The notes beneath the pieces were generated by a model. It had not been told where the DNA came from. It was given only the letters and a program-made list of their open reading frames with translations, and did no database searches. DNA of 64,000 nucleotides from Antedon mediterranea. Taxonomy: Eukaryota > Echinodermata > Crinoidea > Comatulida > Antedonidae. Location of the stretch: contig NC_092676.1 in the NCBI RefSeq assembly GCF_964355755.1, forward strand, positions 5,500,288 to 5,564,287, given 5' to 3'. This document shows positions 111-34,200 of the stretch, piece after piece. How positions within the stretch are numbered: position 1 is the first letter of the stretch; each line of letters starts with the position of its first letter. A program made the position numbers and the translations under genes.

Positions 111-182
111 GGGTTTGAGTTATAACCAAATAAGTACATTGCCAGCCAATGTATTTGATAGATTGACAGCACTGACAACACT
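111..182 (+). CDS. LRR exon a (72 nt)
   Basis: Acceptor TTTGAAG before 111 and donor GTAAGT after 182. Reads L-G-L-S-Y-N-Q-I-S-T then LPANVFDRLTAL-TTL: 24 residues in the LxLxxNxIxxLPxxxFxxLxxLxxL pattern. It is identical in sequence to the next exon at 572-643, and the flanking intron is nearly identical too (tandem period 461 bp). Confidence 0.75.
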
Positions 183-3100
183 GTAAGTATTTTGATCATA
201 TTAATTTTTTTGTTTAATTTGGTTTAAAAATAAAAATTAAAAATAATGAATATAATAATGTATATTATTCTTTGTATCATTTAATAAAACCTCTTATAAG
301 AATTAGTAAAATATTTAATATTAACAAATTATGATACCAATTATTTAGACTTTGCTTTAGAAATTATGTCTATGAGAATAGCACTTTCTTATTAGTACAA
401 TAAATTTTTGCCTAATTAAGTATACTCATCAGCATTCACTATGTTGATAATGTCCCTATCATTGACTGAAATAATATAAAAATAATTTAAAATGTATAAA
501 AAAAATAAAAATTGATGTATCGAACATCTTGAATATTGTAATTGTTATTGTACATTGTTTTTACTTTGAAGGGGTTTGAGTTATAACCAAATAAGTACAT
601 TGCCAGCCAATGTATTTGATAGATTGACAGCACTGACAACACTGTAAGTATTTTGATCATATTAATTTTTTTGTTTAATTTGGTTTAAAAATAAAAATTA
701 AAAATAATGAATATAATAATGTATATTATTCTTTGTATCATTTAATAAAACCTCTTATAAGAATTAGTAAAATATTTAATATTAACAAATTATGATACCA
801 ATTATTTAGACTTTGCTTTAGAAATTATATCTATGAGAATAGCACTTTCTTATTAATATAATTTATTTTTGCCTGATTAAAGTATACTCATCAGCATTTA
901 CAATGTAATGTCCCTATCATTGACTGAAATACTATAAAAATAATTTAAAATGTATAAAAAAAATAAAAATTGATGTATCGAACACCTTGAATATTGTAAT
1001 TGTTACTGTACATTGATTTTACTTTGAAGGTATTTGGGGGTGGGGGAGTGGGAGGCCACGAAGGAACAAAATAAGTACATTGGCAGCCAATGTATTTGAT
1101 AGATTGACAGCACTGACAGAACTTTAATTATTCTTGCTCTTTTAATTTGTTTAATTAGTTATTAAAAATAATTAATAAAATAATGTATAATAATAAATAT
1201 TATACATTGTATCATTGTATAATGTAATCAATACATACAGAGTTTAAAAACCACTTAGCATTAGTAAAATATTCAATCATTAGGCCGATCAATAAATTAT
1301 TAAAAAAAATATTTAATACTGTTTTTCAGTCAGTACACCTATACAGTTTTCATCAATTTCTTAATGAAAAATGTGAATGTTCAATGTTTACCAAACAGCT
1401 TGAATATTGTAATTTTACTGTATTGTAGTTTTTACTTTGAGGGGATTCGTACAAAAACCGAATAAGTATTTGATAGTAGTTTGACAGTATTAAACCTGTT
1501 GTTCTGAAGTTTAAACGCTGAAAAAACGACAGAAGAATAGATTCTCTTTCTTGAGCTATACTCGTTCACTTTATTTCTATCCATCCGTTCATCCGGTAAA
1601 CTAAAATACAAACAGAGAAACAATTGACACGGCGCAATGAAGCATGTCCCTAACGTATACTATACGGCCTAACATACATAAATCGCCGTTAACATGGGCA
1701 TACTATCATCATTATGTATATCAAACATAACTAACTCAAAAATAATTAATAAATACAAATTATATAATGTAAGTACCTGATACTAGGGCTCACTTAACAA
1801 GATTATGTCTCCACACTGAGCATTAAAGGTGTACAACAACGTTAATACAACGTATCGCCTATTGTGTACAACTTTGATACCATGAACAGAGACTACAACA
1901 AACCGTAGCCTAAATTACTTATCAAGGTATAAAGGTGCGATGTACATACATAACACCTGGATCTTGATCATAATAATTGTGTTGTTTAATTTGTTTGAAA
2001 ATAAACAATGTTTGGTAGTAAAAGTTGACATATCGAACAGCTTGAATATTGTAATTGCTACTGTACATTGTTTTTACTTTGAAGGGATTTGGGCCGTGAC
2101 GAAATAAGTAAATTGCCAGCCAATGTATTTGATAGATTGACAGCACTGACAGAACTGTAAGTATTTTACTCATATTAATTTCTTTGTTTAATTTGGTTTA
2201 AAAATAAAAATTAAAAATAATGAATATCATAATGTATATTATGCTTTGTATCATTTAATAAAACCACTTATAAGAATTAGTAAAATATTTAATATTAACA
2301 AATTATGATACCAAATATTTAGAATTTTCTTTAGAAATTATGTCTATGAGAATAGCACTTTCTATTAATATAATTTATTTTTGCCTGATTAAAATATACT
2401 GATCAGCATTTACAATGTAATGTCCCTATCATTGACTTAAATACTATAAAAATAATTTAAAATGTATAAAAAAAATAAAAATTGATGTATCGAACATCTT
2501 GAATATTGTGTACAACTTTGATACCATGAACAGAGACTACAACAAACTGTAAATAGCCTAAATTACTTACCAAGGTATAAAGGTGCGATGTACATACATA
2601 ACACCTGGATCTTGATCATAATAATTATGTTGTTTAATTTGTTTGAAAATAAACAATGTTTGGTAGTAAAAGTTGACATATCGAACAGCTTCAATATTGT
2701 AATTGCTACTGTACATTGTTTTTACTTTGAAGGCATTTGTACGATAACCAAATAACTAAATTGCCAGCCAATGTATTTGATAGATTGACAGCACTGACAA
2801 CATTGTAAGTATTTTACTCATATTAATTTCTTTGTTTAATTTTGTTTAAAAATAAATAATAAAAATACTGAATATAATAATGTATATTATGCTTTGTATC
2901 ATTTAATAAAACCACTTATAAGCATTAGTAAAATATTTAATATTAACAAATTATGATACCAAATATTTAGAATTTTCTTTAGAAATTATATCAATGAGAA
3001 TAGCACTTTCTATTAATATAATTTATTTTTGCTTAATTAAAGTATACTGATCAGCATTTACTATAAAAATATTTCAAAATGTATATGAAAAATACAAGTT

Positions 3101-6100
3101 TACATATCAAACAGCTTGAATATTGTAATTTCTACTGTACATTGTTCTTACTTTGAAGGGTTTTGAGCGGGAACGACATCCGTACATTGCCAGCCAATGT
3201 ATTTGATAGATTGACAGCACTGAGAGAACTGTAAGTATTTAGATCATATAAATTTCTTTGTTTAATTTGGTTTAAAAATAAAAATTAAAATAATGAATAA
3301 AATAATGTATAGCACTGTAAGTATGCATTTCTTTGTTTAATTAGTTATTAAAAATAAATAATAAAATAATTTATAACAATAAATATTATACATTGTATTA
3401 TTTTGTAATGTAATCAATACATACAGATTTTAAAAACAACTTAGCGTTAGTAAAATATTTATTCATTATCAATACATTCATTTAATTAAAATATTATTAC
3501 TGTAATTGATAGTTTTTAAAGATATTTAATGATAGGCCTAATGGTAATAAATACACAAACATTTTCAAATATATTTTGTCTATAAATATTCCCTAATTAA
3601 AGTACTCATCAGTATTTACTATGTAGATAATTCATTGACTAAACGATTATAAAAAAATTAAATAATAATATAATATAATCAAGATGATGCTCATTTCTTT
3701 CACAAATGCTTTATGGAAATATATTATTAATGTTTATACCTTAACCGTATAATATAAGTTTGTTAATATTATACAGAGGTCTAAATTGTATGTTACTGTT
3801 GTACAAAAACAATAGGAGCTTAATTGTTTAAAGATCCATTATTCATTCATATGATTTATTCATGGTCAAAAAGAGTAAAATAAAGTATTTGAAATTATTT
3901 TCTATTGTTCAAAGTTAAAAATTCACAAACAAATATAAAAATAATTTAAATATTATTAATTAGTCTTAATTTAAACAGGTTAAAAATTATTATATTACTA
4001 AAAATATTAAGATGCACTGCACTCATTGTTAAAATATGCTATAGAAATTGTGTCTATGAGACTTTCCTATTTTAACATTATAAGTATCAAACAGCTTGAA
4101 TATTGACGTTTTACTCTACATGTTTTATACTTTGAAGGTACTTATTTGGTAACCAACTAAGTACATTGCCAACCAATGCCTTTAATGGTTTGACATCGTT
4201 GACAAAACTGTGAGTGTTTTTTGTATGTTTACAATAAAGTTGTTTATAATGTAGATCCAGCAGGGTAATCTATACATTTTACAAGGTGCCTTTTTGTCAT
4301 CTCAGGTATAGGCCTGTTAAGCCAACTCAGTCTGGGCCAAATCGGTTCGACAGACATGATTTTAAAGGCTGGACTAGTTTTGTATAGTCAGACCTGTTTT
4401 GGCCCTGGATCAACTTTGCGTTTTTGCGCAATTATGCATACTTACACTTCATTCACCACTGTACTGTTAAGCAGAATACATTTTACTTACCCGTTTTGGT
4501 ACTTTTTAAAATTATTTGTTCATCGCTATGTACATGTGGAAACTAAATACTTTTCAATAGTTGCAAATATTATCAAATTTGATCATGACAATTTATTAAG
4601 TTGATAATAATATAAAAACATTAGTTATATATAAATACAAATAAAAACAGACCATTATTAACATGGGTCCTAGTTAAAAGTAATACTTGCCTCATTAAAT
4701 TCAATATGAAAAATAAAGTTGATTTATCTATCAAACAGAATGGATATTTTAATTCACTTTCTATGCATTTTCTTTAAAGGATATTTCACTGTGAACAAGA
4801 TATTACCGGGGCTAGTTGCCAGTAAGTATTTTGTGCATACATTTATGAATTTTTCGATTAATATGTGACTATAATGTAAATATCCATGAAATTATTATAT
4901 CATACAGTTGTTTAAAATTCAATTCAATTGTGATATTGGTACTAATCAACTGTTAGCTTTCTCTAAAAGTTTGTATATTTTTATACCAATTTAAACACAG
5001 GGCTATAAATAATGTCACCAAAAAATAAACTTATAGATTTTGCACCCAAGCGCCACACTCTGCATCCGCCCCTGCCAATACATTGTTAGTATTATTTTTG
5101 TTAATAATAACAAATGATAATACAGTACAGTATGCAACAGGAATCGGATTATAAACATTGTCACGATATTTTAAATAATCATGTTTTTAGGATGTTCACT
5201 TAATTTGTATTTTTGATTGCAAAAATATAGTTTATAATTTACTTCATACTGTGCATTCTTTTTCAAGTGAAACAAATCAAATAAGTACATTGGAAGCCAA
5301 TGCATTTAATGGTTTGAAAGCATTGCAAAAGCTGTGAGTATTTGTTCTTTCAATTTGTTTTTACTGGTATACACACTTTTATTTCAGAATGTTTGTGAAA
5401 TAATTTTCCAGATCAAAAATACACTTTTATCATTCATCAACTTGGTGTAGTACTGTAAATCTCAGTTCTCCAAATATAAATCAGTCAATATTTGTTTTAT
5501 AATATACAGATACCTAATACATAGATTATAGTATGTGGCTTATTTTGTCTCATAAAACTTGCTTCATCCATTAACTCAAAGTAACCTACAGTACTTCAGT
5601 CATGTCTGTTTATCTTGTGCTCTTTGAATTATAAATGTAGTCAAATGGCCAATCTTAGCTGTTTTATAAATTGCAGTTACCTTTTATATACACACAGCAC
5701 CAGCAAAGTAACAGGCCTAGAAAACAAAACAAAACAAATTAAAAATAAAAGATCTTTTTTCCTGGAAGATTTATGAATTCTCAATTATGTTTATGTCCCA
5801 TAATGATAGTTGAACTATCATCTGCTTTTGACCAATCAGAAGACTTGAATCTTTGAATGTGATATATAATAAATAAATAAAATAAGCAGAAAATATATTT
5901 CTACATTCTTTCCTTCTTCGGAGTGACACAAGTGAAACCAATAGATTGTGATAATTTGATCTTGAGAATAGTTATTTAAAAGAAAAAAATCAATTTTGTA
6001 ATTATTTTATAATACTTTCATTGATTTACCTTGAAGGTGGTTGACCGATTTCAAGATAAGTACATTGCCAACCAATGCCTTTAATGGTTTGACATCGTTG

Positions 6101-9100
6101 AAAGAATTGTGAGTGTTTTTATGTTCATGTTTATACCGTAAAGTTTTCCATAATTTAGATTTAGCAGTGTTCAGCTAGCTTTTAAAAACATATTGTGCCC
6201 ATGAGGATAACTCTTTCCTTATTTTAACATATCAAACAGTTGAATTTTGAATTTTTACTGTACATGTTCTATACTTTAAAGGCGTTTAGATGGTAACCAA
6301 CTAAGTACATTGTCAACTAATGTCTTTAATGGTTTGACATCGTTGACAGAACTGTGAGTGTTTTTTCATGTTTACCATAAAGTTGTTTATAATGCACATC
6401 CAGTAGAGTAATCTATACATCTTTTTACCTTTTTTTAGTCGCGTGCAAACGTGACTCTACAGCTCACTATGTCAGTGGGTCAAATTTGAGTACGTGAAAG
6501 GCCTTTTGGGAGGTTCGTGTGATCTCCAGTTAGCCTATCATTTCCAAAATTACTGTAAAAATTATATTCATTGTCATTTAGGTAGTTGGTTATGGGATTA
6601 TAAATACAAAAAAGATACCTTTATTGTCAAATAATGTGCATCTGTTTATGGACGATGTATTTGTGTTTGACACTGCTTAAATTTAAAAGCATTCAGGCTT
6701 TTGACAATAATTTAAAGTTATATAAAAAAGAAAGTAGGAAGTGACAGTTTGGCTTCTGTAACTATAAATTTAAAATTACCAGGATTTTAACATTGTTAAT
6801 GGTTTCTGTAAATGTTTAGATATAGAAATTTGAACATATATTATAATTATGTCTAAATGGATGTGGAAATTGCATAATTTAACTTTTGAAAATTATTTAT
6901 AAGGTCTATTTCGTAGTGTCATCTCCATATACTTTCAGTACGTCTACTATCTACTTAGAAGCAGGAATGCTTATTTATTTTGAATGTCAATTATGTTGCA
7001 AATACAATGTATCCATTCATAAAGTGATTTTGTATTACTAACGGTAGTTATTTATTTTCAATAAAGCTAATATCTAATTTATCTTTTTTACAGGAATTTA
7101 GATAACAACATTATAACTACCATAGACCCAGATGCATTTTCTTCTGTTGCTTCATCACTTTCAATTTTGTAAGTTAACATTATGTTATTTTGCATGTCTA
7201 TAACACATACTTAGGCTTAAAAAAATGTTCCTTTGCTGTCATCCGCCCTCCCCTTAATTATCGAAAAAAAAAAATTAGAGACGGACAAAAAAGGAGTTAT
7301 TTTTTTCGTTGAGGGCGCTTACGCAATAAAATCTTTACTACTAGTTATCGATCCGTACCTGAGGATACTTGACTCCATTACAATTGCAATATAGTGCAAT
7401 GTGTATTTATTAAGAAATGCTAGTGTTAGTGGTTATTAAATATTAAATAATGAAGGAAAGGGTGAAACAAACATTAAGTTCTAGAAAAAAAGTTGATGAA
7501 TGGAAAACCACCTTACAGTTAAAAGATGATATTGTTGGCAACTCTGATAATTCTTGTACATTTGTGCTATGTTAACAATGTTTAACTTATTTTGAATTTG
7601 TTGTTTTTTAGAAAGCTAAGAGGCAACAAGTTACAGGTGTACAGAGATAGAACATTTCAGCAACTCATAGGCTTAAAAGAATTGTAAGTAATGATAGATC
7701 CCACACAATTTTACATAGTTTAGGTTCAAGACTGTGTTTCGGCTTAATATTAGTAAAAAGAGAAATATTTTGGCACATATAGCATTTCATAGGCATACTA
7801 GTTGAGCTTAAAACACCGACTGGTGGGCTGACATAAAAAAAGACAAGACTAACAGACTTTAGACAAGTCTAAATTTTACAGATACGTCTGTGTAAAGTAT
7901 GAATGTGATTTTCTGCAACTCCAGTGATTTATTAACTTAATAGGCATTTTGATAATGATGATATAGTTGGAGGTATAATTTTTGTTGATTATGTTTAATT
8001 AGAAATATCCTAATATTTCATTAAATTTCAATTAAACAGAATTAACTGAATAAGATAACTAAGTGATTCTGGTAAATATTTTATTTATATAAATTATTGG
8101 TATTTTTTTTATCTGTGTAATATTTTAATGATGAATTATATCAAACACATATCTTTAAATTAGTTGATTATTATCATTGATAAAGTGAAAAATTAGCAAG
8201 GACAAGTTTACTGATTTTATTTATTTTAAGATATGTTTTAAGCTCTGTCTATATACTATCAAACTGATTTGACGAAAAAGTGTGATTTGCCCAAATATGG
8301 TGGTGATATTCCCAAATATGGTAGTGATATTCCCAAATATGGTAGTGATATTCCCAAATATGGTAGTGATATTCCCAAATATGGTAGTGATATTCCCAAA
8401 TATGGTAGTGATATGACATCATCATGACCATATATGAGCATATCACATTTTTTGTCACATAAAGTTTGATACATGCAGACGGAGCTTTAAAATAGTCAGA
8501 TACCTTCTTGAAATACACAAATGCGCTACTAGATTTCTGTTTAAGTAACAAGAGCACCTGCTAAGTCCCGCCCGTATGAATTTTATAATTTTTTTGAACA
8601 TAAAAATCAAAAGAAATTAGAAAAGGTTTCATCTTAGAACTTAATAATAACAATTCACACTGTGTTGTTCAAGATCAATCAAATCACATCATGATCAGTA
8701 AGGGCAATTAATAACAATTTTATTTTTCTATTTGATTATAATTTTCACCAAAGAAAGTGTAAATATTGCCTTTAATTTTTAATGAGATACACCCAACTTA
8801 TACTTATTTTGCATTTATTTCCTTTTGTGTTTATTCATTCGTTAAATTAGTTTAGTTGCCAGCGGGTATTTCAAGAAACGCATTGAAGGGTAACATGTAA
8901 TTCTAATTTCTGAATGTTGGTACAGGACTATTTAAAACCTATCCCAAAATATAATAATAGTGTCCTTTAAGATACAACAAAAATAATAACTAAACAGTAA
9001 TTATTATGTTGCTTTATTTACTTTGACTCTTACAGGTACTCTGATTTCTCAAGTCTCTGTTGCCTCGTGGGCGCCATCGATGTCTGCGAGCCTTCAGATG

Positions 9101-10050
9101 CATTTTCATCGTGTGAAGACTTGCTAAAAAATGAACTTCTCCGTGTGTTGATGATGATTATCGGGTTATCTTCGGTCATTGGGAATGTTGTTGTTATCGT
9201 TTCACGAAAGTTTAAAAAGGATAATGATTCAGGTAACAATGTTAATAAGGTCCAAACCACACTAATTACTAATCTTGCCGTGTCTGACTTGCTAATGGCA
9301 GTCTACCTGATCATCATTGCGAGTGCGGATATACACTTTCGTGGACGGTACGCGACAGCTGCAAGGAATTGGAAGAGCAGTTTTCTTTGCAGCTTTGCCG
9401 GGGCAATTTCTACTATCTCTGGGCAATGCTCAGTGTTTACACTGATGCTGCTGAGTGTGGATAGAGCTATTAACATTGTTAATCCATTTAGTACGAAACG
9501 CCTCAATCGTACAAAATGTAGAATCATTATCGGCTTGGCATGGCTATTTTGGATTGTGCTGAGTTTTCTTCCAATAACAGATATTTCATATTTTGGGGAT
9601 AATTACTATGGCAAAGAGAGTGTGTGCCTCGCTCTGCCGCTGACAAAGAGTCATTGGCAAGGCTGGGAGTATGCAGTCGCCATGTTTGTTGTATTTAACA
9701 GCATCGGGTTCATTGTAATAACAGTGAGCTACCTCGTAATCTTCTTATCGGTAAAGAGATCGGGGGCCACTGTCAATAGACGACAGATGAGGAAGGAACA
9801 GTTGAAAATGGCGAGGAAACTAGGCTTAATAGTTTTCACAGATTTCTGTTGCTGGGGTCCGATTATAGTAATGGCAATTGGTTCTGAGATGGGTTGGATG
9901 ACGATTCCTGATGAAATATATGTTTGGGCAGCGACATTCATCATCCCCATCAACTCCGCAGTCAATCCTTATCTTTACACAATTGCTTATATGTTTAAGT
10001 GCAAAGTTCGTCAACCGGCAGTTGTACAGATTCCACTTAATACATTGTGA
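111..10050 (+). CDS. LRR-containing GPCR, relaxin-receptor/LGR type (5'-partial)
   Basis: Rhodopsin-family receptor with a leucine-rich-repeat ectodomain, acting at the plasma membrane. Supported coding exons: 111-182, 572-643, 2085-2156, 2733-2804, 3159-3230, 4138-4209, 5268-5333 (short, doubtful), 6037-6108, 6282-6353, 7094-7168, 7612-7683 and 9036-10050. Every LRR exon is entered and left in phase 2 with an AG acceptor and GTAAGT or GTGAGT donor, and together they translate as consecutive 24-residue LRRs. The last exon carries a cysteine-rich hinge and seven transmembrane helices ending in NPYLYT. The FTDF at TM6 and the LRR-hinge-7TM order are typical of LGR/RXFP receptors. The 5' end (signal peptide, any LDLa module, earlier LRRs) lies outside the window. 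Ligand unknown. That all array exons belong to the same transcript is inferred from strand, phase and order. Confidence 0.85.
572..643 (+). CDS. LRR exon b (72 nt), duplicate of exon a
   Basis: Same 72-nt exon as 111-182, with the same acceptor and donor, 461 bp downstream. Very recent tandem duplication. Phase 2 on both sides, so its presence or absence keeps the frame. Confidence 0.75.
1030..1123 (+). pseudogene. Decayed LRR exon c
   Basis: Matches the 3' half of the LRR exons (AATGTATTTGATAGATTGAC) and the acceptor side. A 22-nt G-rich insertion (TGGGGGTGGGGGAG...) breaks the frame, and the donor GTAAGT is changed to TTAATT. It cannot be spliced as a normal LRR exon. Confidence 0.7.
1440..1510 (+). 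pseudogene. Decayed LRR exon d
   Basis: Residual match to the cassette (ACTTTGAGG...AATAAGTATTTGATAG). The acceptor AAG is changed to GAG, the segment encoding LPANV is deleted, and there is no donor at the expected place. Confidence 0.5.
2085..2156 (+). CDS. LRR exon e (72 nt)
   Basis: Acceptor TTTGAAG, donor GTAAGT. Reads L-D-L-G-R-D-E-I-S-K then LPANVFDRLTAL-TEL. The upstream intron from about 1861 is nearly identical to that of exon f from about 2509 (period 648 bp), but the first 28 nt of the two exons differ strongly. Confidence 0.78.
2733..2804 (+). CDS. LRR exon f (72 nt)
   Basis: Acceptor TTTGAAG, donor GTAAGT. Reads L-H-L-Y-D-N-Q-I-T-K then LPANVFDRLTAL-TTL. It is the 648-bp duplicate partner of exon e. 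Confidence 0.78.
3159..3230 (+). CDS. LRR exon g (72 nt)
   Basis: Acceptor TTTGAAG, donor GTAAGT. Reads L-V-L-S-G-N-D-I-R-T then LPANVFDRLTAL-REL. The 3' half is identical at DNA level to exons a, b, e and f. Confidence 0.78.
4138..4209 (+). CDS. LRR exon h (72 nt)
   Basis: Acceptor TTTGAAG, donor GTGAGT. Reads L-Y-L-F-G-N-Q-L-S-T then LPTNAFNGLTSL-TKL. It belongs to a second sub-family of cassettes shared with the exons at 6037 and 6282. Confidence 0.78.
4780..4813 (+). pseudogene. Truncated LRR exon remnant i
   Basis: Preceded by the cassette's intron end (ACAGAATGGATATTTTAATT...TTTAAAG). The sequence then diverges and reaches a GTAAGT-like site near 4813 without an LRR core. Probably an internally deleted exon. 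Confidence 0.4.
5268..5333 (+). CDS. Short LRR exon j (66 nt)
   Basis: Acceptor TTTTTCAAG, donor GTGAGT, phase 2 kept. Encodes T-N-Q-I-S-T-L-E-A-N-A-F-N-G-L-K-A-L-Q-K-L but is two residues short in the beta-strand segment (22 instead of 24). It may still be used or may be decaying. Confidence 0.5.
6037..6108 (+). CDS. LRR exon k (72 nt)
   Basis: Acceptor CTTGAAG, donor GTGAGT. Reads L-W-L-T-D-F-K-I-S-T then LPTNAFNGLTSL-KEL. The next exon starts only 245 bp downstream. Confidence 0.78.
6282..6353 (+). CDS. LRR exon l (72 nt)
   Basis: Acceptor TTTAAAG, donor GTGAGT. Reads L-R-L-D-G-N-Q-L-S-T then LSTNVFNGLTSL-TEL. Confidence 0.78.
7094..7168 (+). CDS. LRR exon m (75 nt), single copy
   Basis: Acceptor TTTTTTACAG, donor GTAAGT. 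A 25-residue LRR (L-N-L-D-N-N-I-I-T-T-I-D-P-D-A-F...LSIL) that does not share DNA identity with the amplified cassettes, so it belongs to the stable membrane-proximal part of the ectodomain. Confidence 0.82.
7612..7683 (+). CDS. LRR exon n (72 nt), single copy
   Basis: Acceptor TTGTTTTTTAG, donor GTAAGT. Reads L-K-L-R-G-N-K-L-Q-V-Y then RDRTFQQLIGL-KEL and splices in phase to the 7TM exon at 9036. Confidence 0.83.
8239..8489. mobile_element. Palindromic MITE, family M1, with internal 21-bp array
   Basis: Ends are inverted copies of AAGCTCTGTCTACACTATC. The inner part is a tandem array of about six CCCAAATATGGTAGTGATATT units (8290-8412). Non-autonomous DNA element in the last GPCR intron. 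The two long open frames across it on the minus strand come from the repeat and are not a gene. Confidence 0.85.
9036..10050 (+). CDS. Terminal 7TM exon of the LRR GPCR
   Basis: One 1015-nt exon after acceptor CTCTTACAG. It completes a Leu codon split in phase 2, then encodes a Cys-rich hinge (CCLVGAIDVCEPSDAFSSCEDLL, spaced cysteines) and seven hydrophobic helices. TM1 has GN (IGNVVVIV), TM2 has NLAVSDLLMA, TM3 ends SVDRAINIVNPF, TM4 has the conserved W, TM6 has FTDFCCWGP and TM7 has NSAVNPYLYT. The C-tail after NPYLYT is only about 24 residues. The E/DRY motif reads DRA. TGA is at 10048-10050. Two Cys (after TM2 and in ECL2) can form the usual disulfide. The GTG at 9067 is inside the exon and is not a start. 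Confidence 0.93.
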
Positions 10051-31200: not shown

Positions 31201-34200
31201 TATTTGTGTCATATAATGGAAATGATTTGATTTCTTTAGGAACTTGTTTAAACTTGGTTCCCACTAGCGACGCAACCTTTACGCAACATAAGAAGATTCC
31301 CGTCCAATAATCATTCTTTCCCCCACCTGTGTGGAATCAAACCAGCGATATTTGCAGCACTGTTGCGTCGTCGGTTCCCACTTGTGATTACGCAATACAA
31401 CACTTTGTGTCAATAGGTCGTTGCGTTACTAGTGGGAACCACACTTTAGATAAATTGACTGCTTTTTTTTGTGTAAGTTTTGTTATCTACATTAAACTTT
31501 CCAAAAAATGTTTTTATCAAACCAGGGAAGAGTTAAATTTAATTTAATTTAACTCTTCCCTGATGTAACATTTGTAGACAAGAAGGAGACACACCATCAA
31601 ATGTCAACGTTTTTGTGACAAAAAAATATGATGTGGCCATATATGGACATGATAATGTCATATCACTACCATATTTGGGTACATCACATTACTTTTTTTG
31701 TCAAACTAGTTTGATAGTGTGGACAGAGTTTTAGACAAGGATTTTATATTTCAAATTGCTTTTTTTTAAACATTTTGCAGAACTGTTTTCTGGTCTCAGC
31801 TTCAGAAGATGTGCTCTTAAAAGTGTTCCAAATTAGCTGTCTGAAAGGGGATGATTTGTCTGGTATATAATTCATTTTGTGTTATTTGATTTCTCATATT
31901 TAAGATGTATTGCCCACAAAAGCATGGACAAAAATGAATATTAATTTAAACAAATTTTAAATAGGAAAATTTGCAGTTTTAATTATTTTAACCACTTCCG
32001 TAGAAAAAAAGATTAAAACATTTTGTTTTCACTTATAAAAAGAGAAAATAAATGGTTAAAAATCTAACTGAAAAACCATTGACTCCAGTCAATTTGACTA
32101 TTTTTGCATTTTATTACAGTTTTTTCAGGTACTTTTTTTTTTTTTATCCATTTTATTTTTAAATCTATATTAAAAATATGTGACATCTGCACCCCAATGA
32201 TTATGATAATATTGATTTTAAAAAAACATTGCAGAGTATAATGTATAATGCTCAGTAATGGTTGTCGTATTTCTAACTTTCTGAATTTCATAATTTATTT
32301 GATTTGATAGGTGATTTGATGGAGAAAGTTCAAAATACATGGATGTATGGAATCACATCTTTAGTTGAAAATAAAAAGTACTTCTCAAATGCCCAAAACT
32401 TTCTACACAAGCTCGCAGGGTGGATAAAAGTTAATCTCATGAAATCTTCATCGCTAGTAGACAGGTAATGTTAGTCATACAAAATAAGCTTACTACCTCC
32501 AAATAAAGACCAATTTAATGTCCAGGATTTTAGTTGTTTTATCAACGGGTAATGTTTACACTATAGAATAAGCTTACTATTTCCAAATAAAGACCAGCTA
32601 GTGCTTTAGTTGTTTTTGGACAGGTAAAGTTTACACTATAAAATAGTCTTACTACCTCCAAATAAAGACCAGTTTAAAGCTAGTGTTTTGGTTTTTGGAC
32701 AGGAAATTGTTGCAATATGCAATGCACTTTCAATGTAGACGCACTATGAAATACACTTACTACCTCCAAATAAAGACCATGTTTAGAATAAGGGTTTTAC
32801 TGGTTTCATGTGCTAAAAAAAAAAAAATAGAAACTCTGGGTTTTTTTATGGTTTTTTCTTGGACCACACCGCATATTGTGAGTGCCACCGATTCAATAAA
32901 TAAATAAACAATATTTCTCTTTTTGGCACTATTCCAATTAAATCTCAAAAGTAAAATAAAGATCTTCTTTAGATCTACTACAATAGCCAATGCAACCAGT
33001 CTTGTTTATCAAGTTCTTAACGAGAACATAAACCAGGATTGTGAAGACATACAGATGACTGGTGGTGAGTTCTTGCAGCTTATACTGCCAACTAAAGAAG
33101 AATGGAATGGTTGTAGAAGAAGTCTTCCTCTTCAGGTATGGCAATAATGTCATTTAAAAATGTTTTTTTTTGTCATTTATGGGCTTGTCCTACTTTTATT
33201 TAAAATATATCTCTCTATATAAACATCACAGGCACAGAATATGTATATTCTGATGTATTATTAAAATTAAAAGACTGTATCTGATTAAAATTGTGAAAAA
33301 CTAAAATGATCAGCATTTTTGTGCTATGTTCGATTTTAACTCAATATTACCGTCTCACAGTGGAAAGAAAATTTGACAATGCAAGGAGATTTGATGCTAA
33401 TAAACGCCAACGAAAAACTACCAGAAACATTCCAAGATGATGTCCCAAACCAAATTATGCTGTCCGTATTCCTGGCAACACTTTTAACCATTCAGCCGCA
33501 GCTAGAAGAGGACAACGTACTGGAATATGAGGAAGTACGCGTTGACAGAATTCCGTCAAAGAAAGATGCAGATGAAACAATTAGTAAAGAAAGATCTGAA
33601 AGTAAATTGCCAGAACAAGAGACTCTTTCAAAAGAAGATTCAGAAGCAGTTACTGCTGGAGAGTCTTCTGGAAATGTACAGCCAAAGAAAGATGTCAGTG
33701 AAAGAGAAGATCCTATTTCTGCAGAGTCTTCCAACAATGGGCAGTCTTCTGACAATAGAGAGTCTTCTGACAATGTACAGCCAAAGAACGATGTCAGTGA
33801 AAGAGAAGATGCTATTTCTGCAGAGTCTTCTAACAATGGGCAGTCTTCTGACAATGGAGAGTCTTCTGACAATGTACAGCCAAAAAATGAAAGAGAAGAT
33901 GCTATTTCTGCAGAGTCTTCTAAAAGTATGCTTCCTTGGAATTTTGACAAAATGGAAGATTACATACTAGAAGTTGTCTACTCAATGCAGTGGAGTTTGG
34001 CTATAAGCAATAGTGAACAACTGGTTTGTATATTCCTTCAGGATAGTATCAATTTTAATCCATTTTTTTCTGTTGAGGATTTGAGTCGTTTTGAGCAAAC
34101 TGTCTAGATATACTCTTTAAATTATAGAAGTTATATGATGTAATGGTATACAAATAATGAAGGTTTATGAATGCGATAGTGCAGATAATTTCATGAGGTG

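Follow-up and report, generated by a model that had tools for sequence, protein, structure and literature searches.

Variation at predicted concave-surface codons in the leucine-rich repeat exons of RXFP1-like receptor genes of Antedon mediterranea

A receptor gene with one repeat per exon

The stretch analysed here (the window) comprises 64,000 nucleotides of the crinoid Antedon mediterranea (contig NC_092676.1, C7:5500288-5564287) and appears to carry the 3' part of a gene for a class A G-protein-coupled receptor (GPCR) with an ectodomain of leucine-rich repeats (LRRs). Its parts are collected in Table 1, where, as in the text, positions without a contig prefix are window coordinates and prefixed ones (C7, C8) are contig coordinates. 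The distal exons are 72 nt long, bounded by AG/GT splice sites and in phase 2 on both sides, and each encodes a single LRR of the form xLxxNxIxTLPANVFDRLTALTxL; the exons at 4138, 6037 and 6282 belong to another backbone class than the distal ones at 111, 572, 2085, 2733 and 3159. The seven-transmembrane (7TM) region follows the last distal exon on the same strand after about 5.8 kb and matches 7tm_1 in Pfam (1.9e-33) and, as best match in PDB, relaxin receptor 1 (7tmw, 3.7e-47), in agreement with the GPCR ectodomain proposed in an initial annotation made from the letters of the window. Upstream of the window we found two further distal LRR exons (C7:5499131 and C7:5499938), an exon with an LRRNT-like cysteine motif recognised by pattern only (C7:5498245) and a stretch that, by eye, is a likely signal peptide (C7:5496460). 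The order and phase of these parts and their likeness to paralogues suggest a gene composed of signal peptide, LRRNT, distal LRR array, membrane-proximal LRRs and 7TM. No LDLa module was detected by strict and then relaxed pattern scans of the gene-strand open reading frames of regions A, B and C, and none lies in C7:5.0-5.8 Mb among the 150 matches listed in a genome search with PF00057 (150 of 956 candidates scored).

Table 1. Parts of the putative receptor gene in the window
Feature	Encoded repeat	Positions	Strand	Evidence and remarks
LRR exon a, 72 nt, phase 2-2	GLSYNQISTLPANVFDRLTALTT+L	111..182	+	AG/GT splice sites, open frame
LRR exon b	DNA identical to exon a	572..643	+	introns of a and b differ at 1/351 sites
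Dead cassette c, donor lost, G-rich insert in front		1030..1117	+	
LRR exon e	DLGRDEISKLPANVFDRLTALTE+L	2085..2156	+	exon scan, pair comparison
LRR exon f, duplicate of e at 648 bp	HLYDNQITKLPANVFDRLTALTT+L	2733..2804	+	repeat and exon scan
LRR exon g	VLSGNDIRTLPANVFDRLTALRE+L	3159..3230	+	partner C7:5476322 in neighbouring gene, introns 7/326
LRR exon h, other backbone class	YLFGNQLSTLPTNAFNGLTSLTK+L	4138..4209	+	exon scan
Possible LRR exon, 66 nt, two codons under the 72-nt standard	ETNQISTLEANAFNGLKALQK+L (by eye)	5268..5333	+	similar stretch in neighbouring gene
Membrane-proximal LRR exon	WLTDFKISTLPTNAFNGLTSLKE+L	6037..6108	+	similar in paralogues
Membrane-proximal LRR exon	RLDGNQLSTLSTNVFNGLTSLTE+L	6282..6353	+	similar in neighbouring gene
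Last LRR exon	KLRGNKLQVYRDRTFQQLIGLKE+L	7612..7683	+	identical in neighbouring gene
7TM coding region, 349-codon open stretch, exon start approximate		9001..10047	+	RXFP1-like class A GPCR

A search of the genome (354 Mb in 18 contigs) with the 7TM gave at least 114 matches (116 of 285 candidates scored), at least 70 of them with an E-value of 1e-73 or better; 67 of those 70 align over at least 300 of the 349 residues, and some of these matches hold one or two internal stop codons. A strict 32-nt exon-core pattern has 71 hits, every one on C7, and its reversed control has none. Marker profiles run against the genome gave no match for PF01341 (GH6, a tunicate marker), PF00115 or PF00029 (connexin) and two weak matches for PF00876 (innexin), which speaks weakly against a typical protostome and a tunicate; the GH6, innexin and connexin profiles gave no signal in any control genome either. 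The 266 kb read around selected genes yielded 100 exon-like matches, of which 83 passed a backbone filter. One of these had too short a flank, and the remaining 82 cassettes come from seven arrays on C7, each array with its own backbone; this set includes one membrane-proximal exon (C7:5506569) that escaped the filter and entered none of the nearest pairs defined below. The scan required AG/GT and the absence of stop codons, which makes sites and frames in the 82 cassettes intact by construction, and the share of intact exons was therefore taken from a hidden Markov model (HMM) search alone: every hit is intact in region C (57), region A (11) and the C8 stretches (48), as are 25/35 in region B (that of the window gene), 7/15 in D and 10/22 in a decaying array at 8.27-8.31 Mb. 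The last (C7:8266068-8310300) joins 10 intact-looking cassettes among its 22 HMM hits to a downstream 7TM match with 12 stop codons, and could be used as a neutral control. Elsewhere on C7 three 7TM copies with equal scores (C7:4084537, 4204508 and 4344741) lie about 120-140 kb apart and are apparently very young duplicates.

Variation at four codons and its rate against introns

The concentration of variation is seen in the exon pair e and f, which the initial annotation had placed in a 648-bp duplication. The repeat was recovered (spacing 648 bp, 95% identity over 300 bp), together with the few upstream intron changes and the 4-base indel described there: in the introns compared (within 197 bases on the upstream side and 154 on the downstream side, splice sites excluded), 4/193 upstream and 6/154 downstream sites differ, 10/347 in all, and the indel is visible in the sequence. 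Recounting confirmed eight differing positions in the first 28 nt of the exons, spread over six codons that all change the amino acid (D/H, G/Y, R/D, D/N, E/Q, S/T), and then an identical 35-nt core. Altogether 11/72 exon bases differ; codon 22 (E/T) accounts for two of them, and only the split last codon (CT/TT, L/L) changes silently. The assignment of the changes to the ligand-facing strand holds for the four concave codons (7/12 bases against 10/347 in the introns; Fisher p 9e-8, odds ratio 47) but not for the remaining three: D/N, at codon 4 of exon e, concerns the conserved ladder Asn, a residue that does not face the ligand, and the changes at codons 5 (E/Q) and 7 (S/T) presumably fall just beyond the strand. 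For this pair, concave codons thus exceed introns in divergence and silent changes are rare, contrary to the two outcomes named in the initial annotation as speaking against selection.

The four codons 0, 2, 3 and 22 of each 72-nt exon are called hypervariable (HV) below. The set was chosen after the exon scan, agrees with the x positions of the initial annotation and with the LRR consensus, and was carried unchanged to a second subfamily on C8; we take codons 22, 0, 2 and 3 to be the x positions of the strand xLxLxxN, all four of which face the concave side in LRR proteins. The suggested alignment of cassettes, with rates per position and for introns, was run on the 82 cassettes and places the excess at these codons. 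Per-base diversity is 0.47-0.75 at 11 of the 12 HV bases (third base of codon 0, 0.14) and 0-0.07 in the intervening conserved codons 1, 4, 6, 8 and 9. Moderate values occur at codon 5 (maximum 0.36), codon 7 (maximum 0.28), the first base of codon 20, a silent site (0.33), and the middle base of codon 21 (0.20). Exon bases 29-65 average 0.040 against 0.106 for the last 60 intron bases. Codon 0 most often encodes Y, D or S, codon 2 S, G, Y or N, codon 3 S, G, Y or R, and codon 22 E, H, K or T.

From a tree of the introns alone (unweighted pair group method with arithmetic mean), 23 non-overlapping nearest pairs (cherries) were drawn on C7. Their introns differ at 115/8019 sites and their HV codons at 90/276 bases, corresponding to 83.7 nonsynonymous changes over 230.7 sites (0.363) and 6.3 silent changes over 45.3 sites; the nonsynonymous HV rate per site is about 25 times that of the introns. 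In the other 17 codons the nonsynonymous (0.018) and silent (0.021) rates are about those of introns. Fifty of the 51 changed HV codons alter the amino acid and 31 of the 51 carry two or three base changes; five of the 23 cherries have no HV change, and one pair combines 10 exon differences with introns identical over 349 sites. Sorted by intron distance, cassette pairs differ on average in 0.83 of the four HV codons under 0.5% (6 pairs), 2.85 at 0.5-2% (20 pairs) and 3.37 at 2-5% (186 pairs), then in about 3.6, so that the HV difference saturates by a few percent of intron divergence.

The pair with unchanged introns and the many multiply changed HV codons are what a mutator targeted to exon fronts, in germline or soma, might produce. 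We regard this as very unlikely: only 1/115 comparisons shows a change at the third position of a conserved front codon, so that the silent sites of the 28-nt front have no elevated rate, and codon 22 lies about 40 nt away, past a core that changes little, which would require the mutator to act codon by codon. The same silent count argues against old fronts that homogenisation has spared.

Young gene copies show the same contrast. Between genes C1 and C3 the 7TM differs at 0/227 silent and 2/775 nonsynonymous sites, and the 1301 bp at the 5' side (LRRNT-like exon and first two LRR exons) carry 32 substitutions, 24 of them in the two LRR exons (144 nt) against 8 in the remaining 1157 bases; 16 of the 24 fall in the 24 HV bases. 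In nine other pairs of five genes the dN/dS of the 7TM is 0.09-0.16, and this region is, judged from these ratios, under purifying selection. Change is also much weaker in the membrane-proximal LRRs, where five non-overlapping pairs, chosen by hand, differ at 2/60 HV bases and at 134/1548 intron sites; among the 16 pairs listed the difference never exceeds 3/12 HV bases, and it is the last LRR of genes C1-C4 that gives the highest values.

Concerted evolution with relaxed constraint would offer a different account, in which introns and backbone are homogenised and x codons free of constraint retain old neutral differences. It draws support from the array-specific backbones that go with similar introns, from mosaic flanks (upstream and downstream introns yield different nearest pairs) and from a front diversity that, over all pairs, is not above that of introns. 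However, neutral codons should match the intron rate, and the HV codons of the cherries are far above it; the LRR exons of genes C1 and C3 have changed much more than the sequence around them; old spared fronts would imply old silent sites between the x codons, which are almost unchanged; and free x codons in the proximal LRRs should drift like their introns, which they do not. We therefore consider relaxed constraint improbable.

The second subfamily (C8:24.37-24.47 Mb) has 48 cassettes, a 7TM about 69% identical and a different LRR backbone. In 13 of its 14 cherries, those under 5% intron divergence, introns differ at 20/4041 sites, HV codons at 15/156 bases and the other 17 codons not at all (p 3e-13), so that an excess of HV change over introns is also found here, as weaker support. 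Two further loci with other subfamilies (C7:18.04 Mb and C1:24.27 Mb on the contigs so named) have a like layout by eye. An artefact of assembly or annotation (collapsed haplotypes, sequencing error or exon-like repeats that do not code) has in its favour that near-identical repeat arrays are hard to assemble; it is scarcely credible here, since the differences respect the reading frame and the LRR positions, all HMM hits of regions C and A are intact, and a second contig has the same layout.

Duplication, gene conversion and selection

Three processes are visible in these arrays: block duplication of cassettes, short-tract conversion of exon fronts and selection at the x codons. Duplication is illustrated by gene C3, in which two adjoining exons recur at 2932 bp with zero differences in the exons and the 351 flanking sites compared. 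Conversion is seen between cassettes C7:5745444 and C7:5747839, which differ by four substitutions in 932 bp, all of them at exon positions 2, 3, 4 and 8; the new RNS word of this pair also occurs in cassettes C7:5745964, C7:5744507 and C7:5788137, whose introns differ, and the tract lies between positions -44 and +25, at most 68 bp. Between intron-distant cassettes there are 14 identical three-codon words, where 4.16 are expected (maximum of 11 over 500 permutations). Conversion has a greater role than would be supposed from point change by itself.

It is possible, and we hold this tentatively, that conversion of exon fronts is the main source of the variation, with tracts of tens of bases moving words between cassettes and little new mutation, an account that overlaps with the one we favour. 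The pair just described and the shared words fit it, as do nine of the 17 cherries with differing words, where one or both words recur in other cassettes of the set, and one exon of the C1/C3 comparison, in which backbone and front changes travel together. Against it, the 82 cassettes contain 61 distinct words, and in eight of the 17 cherries neither word recurs elsewhere in the set, although donors may lie outside the stretches read; moreover, conversion supplies variants and leaves their retention mostly at x codons unexplained. The conversion limited to the exon front that the initial annotation offered beside selection is thus seen in one pair, and it fails alone to account for the x-codon bias.

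We consider it probable that these germline-encoded receptors have been shaped by diversifying selection acting on their concave surface, with cassette duplication and short-tract gene conversion supplying the variation. The strong diversifying selection initially proposed finds support in the 82 cassettes, the young gene copies, the more stable proximal LRRs and, more weakly, the second subfamily. Because each distal LRR would correspond to one 72-nt phase-2 exon within a duplicating cassette, cassettes may be gained, lost or shuffled with the reading frame intact. The backbone within each array would be kept alike, strong recurrent selection would push codons 22, 0, 2 and 3 of each repeat apart, with variants supplied by new point changes and by short-tract conversion between cassettes, and duplication and exchange would keep the introns young. 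The concave face would then be a fast-changing binding surface feeding a conserved GPCR, its likeliest partners being diverse or antagonistically evolving ones (microbes, non-self, environmental cues). We infer from sequence a single transcript, its expression, the protein fold, the type of ligand and an immune or chemosensory role.

Several observations weigh against selection as the explanation. (i) The excess over introns is visible only between close cassettes: over all pairs the 28 front bases average 0.222, and introns 0.200 upstream and 0.276 downstream, and in the window gene (B2) the fronts average 0.283 against 0.315 and 0.284; the averages are no higher than those of introns because the four HV codons saturate. 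The equal divergence of introns and fronts once named as a refutation is therefore absent from close pairs and approximately present in the overall averages. (ii) Picking cherries by lowest intron distance understates intron divergence. When one intron picks the pairs and the other measures them, introns differ at 384/3618 and 273/4433 sites and HV codons at 116/288 and 95/276 bases, with odds ratios (5.7 and 8.0) below the contrast of the cherries, partly because the flanks are mosaic. (iii) The counted ratio of nonsynonymous to silent HV change in C7 is no more than 2.6, a low value since codons hit several times add silent steps, and within the cherries the other 17 codons are not better conserved than introns (nonsynonymous 0.018 against 0.014). 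(iv) Fisher tests assume independent bases, and conversion shifts several together. (v) Eight of the 24 exon changes between genes C1 and C3 lie outside the HV codons (8/120 bases against 8/1157), three of them in codons 5 and 7, and the second exon also differs in its backbone; these backbone changes suit conversion from a different cassette. (vi) The last LRRs of genes C1-C4 reach their maximum HV difference at about 2-5% intron divergence, and the distal array is the main, though not the exclusive, site of diversification. (vii) In the C8 subfamily HV changes are 12.8/136.5 nonsynonymous against 2.2/19.5 silent, a ratio below 1; in nine of the 14 cherries the two members have the same introns and protein, and across the 48 cassettes there is also variation at codons 11, 13, 18 and 21. 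(viii) HMM hits are not intact in 10 of 35 cases in region B, in 8 of 15 in D and in 12 of 22 in the decaying array.

Broken cassettes provide a control of low power. Those of the G-rich type of cassette c occur in five copies across the window gene and the neighbouring gene (a second broken type, in two) and differ at 22/450 front bases and 162/3158 flanking bases, without front excess; power is low because the live exons belonging to these units themselves show few differing front bases (23/290, with introns at 375/1679 upstream and 64/1433 downstream).

Relation to known receptor and repeat systems

The class A 7TM closest to RXFP1 relates the family to RXFP1/2 and the type C LGRs (RXFP/LGR3-type and LGR4/GRL101-type), and RXFP1/2 share with it the LRR ectodomain, with here one LRR per 72-nt phase-2 exon; vertebrate RXFP genes likewise have one LRR per exon of the same kind. 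Unlike RXFP1/2, the genes at C7:5.2-5.8 Mb gave no LDLa in our scans, the copies in the genome are many and the distal LRRs are highly variable. Hypervariable LRR surfaces are known from the variable lymphocyte receptors (VLRs) of lampreys and from plant immune receptors, and LRR GPCRs are known mainly as hormone receptors. VLRs, found in lampreys and hagfish, vary at concave x positions, as the receptors described here appear to do on the x placement that we assume, and both have an LRRNT-like motif and a backbone of the kind LPxxVFDxLTxLT; six joined exons compared with PDB match VLRA (2o6q, 4.4e-55), the top match being 5a5c, a designed-looking LRRTM chain. In contrast to VLRs, the LRRs here are followed by a 7TM, read as part of one gene by order and phase, and not by a stalk or GPI anchor, and the diversity resides in complete germline exons (cassettes counted intact are complete with splice sites). 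The comparison with VLRs drawn in the initial annotation is apt for the working surface and not for membership, the receptor being closest to RXFP1 in its 7TM. Plant NLRs are cytosolic immune receptors without a 7TM.

Highly variable plant NLRs are LRR immune receptors with high diversity (PMC8226289). The zinc-finger array of PRDM9 consists of tandem repeats with a similar backbone and positive selection at contact codons (PMC3890296), with a mean dN/dS of 2.7 for the human repeats (PMC5120217). Likewise, near-identical repeats differ here at the presumed contact codons, with dN above a neutral yardstick; PRDM9 is the nearest analogue of the process. The differences are that the repeats here are separate exons with introns, which places a neutral yardstick beside each of them, that they belong to a putative membrane receptor and not to a DNA-binding protein, and that they are LRRs beside a 7TM and not C2H2 zinc fingers with a PR/SET domain. 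The LDLRR-GPCR or LGR-like expansion of Ciona is also a lineage-specific invertebrate GPCR expansion with a relaxin-receptor-like 7TM, but its 14 LDLRR-GPCRs bear LDLa repeats without LRRs, and hypervariability is not mentioned in the accessible text (PMC2396169). Among echinoderms, the starfish relaxin-like receptor is of RXFP/LGR3 type (PMC11863921) and six LDLa motifs are present in a GRL101-like receptor of the crown-of-thorns (PMC6267866). The accessible part of an amphioxus GPCR paper contains nothing on hypervariable LRR GPCRs (PMC2246102), and the titles and abstract starts listed in literature searches, with subscription papers mostly beyond their scope, gave no report of hypervariable LRR cassettes in a GPCR.

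This RXFP-like LRR GPCR family works like a VLR or a PRDM9 array and belongs to neither. A pattern of variation at concave positions, known from lamprey VLRs, was unexpected in GPCRs that resemble hormone receptors, and a GPCR ectodomain whose evolution resembles that of an antigen receptor would indicate a novel type of recognition system coupled directly to G-protein signalling, for which immune, allorecognition or chemosensory roles are candidates. With its own intron as neutral yardstick, each cassette would allow mutation, conversion and selection to be separated within one genome. More speculatively, and as an idea we regard as rather doubtful, GPCRs of an invertebrate might serve as an anticipatory recognition repertoire, in which dozens of germline genes present VLR-like surfaces built from interchangeable frame-neutral LRR cassettes under conversion and selection. 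Since each distal exon has 72 nt and phase 2-2, exon skipping could further multiply the surfaces per gene, by analogy with Dscam.

Finally, minor features were noted. Within array A, between two LRR cassettes, a 280-codon frame at C7:5243012 resembles by eye the reverse transcriptase of a non-LTR retrotransposon. In the window, a 21-bp tandem repeat occupies 8282-8407, in the interval that separates the 7TM region from the last LRR exon, and an open frame with repeated units lies at 33340-34107, where long frames are open on both strands.

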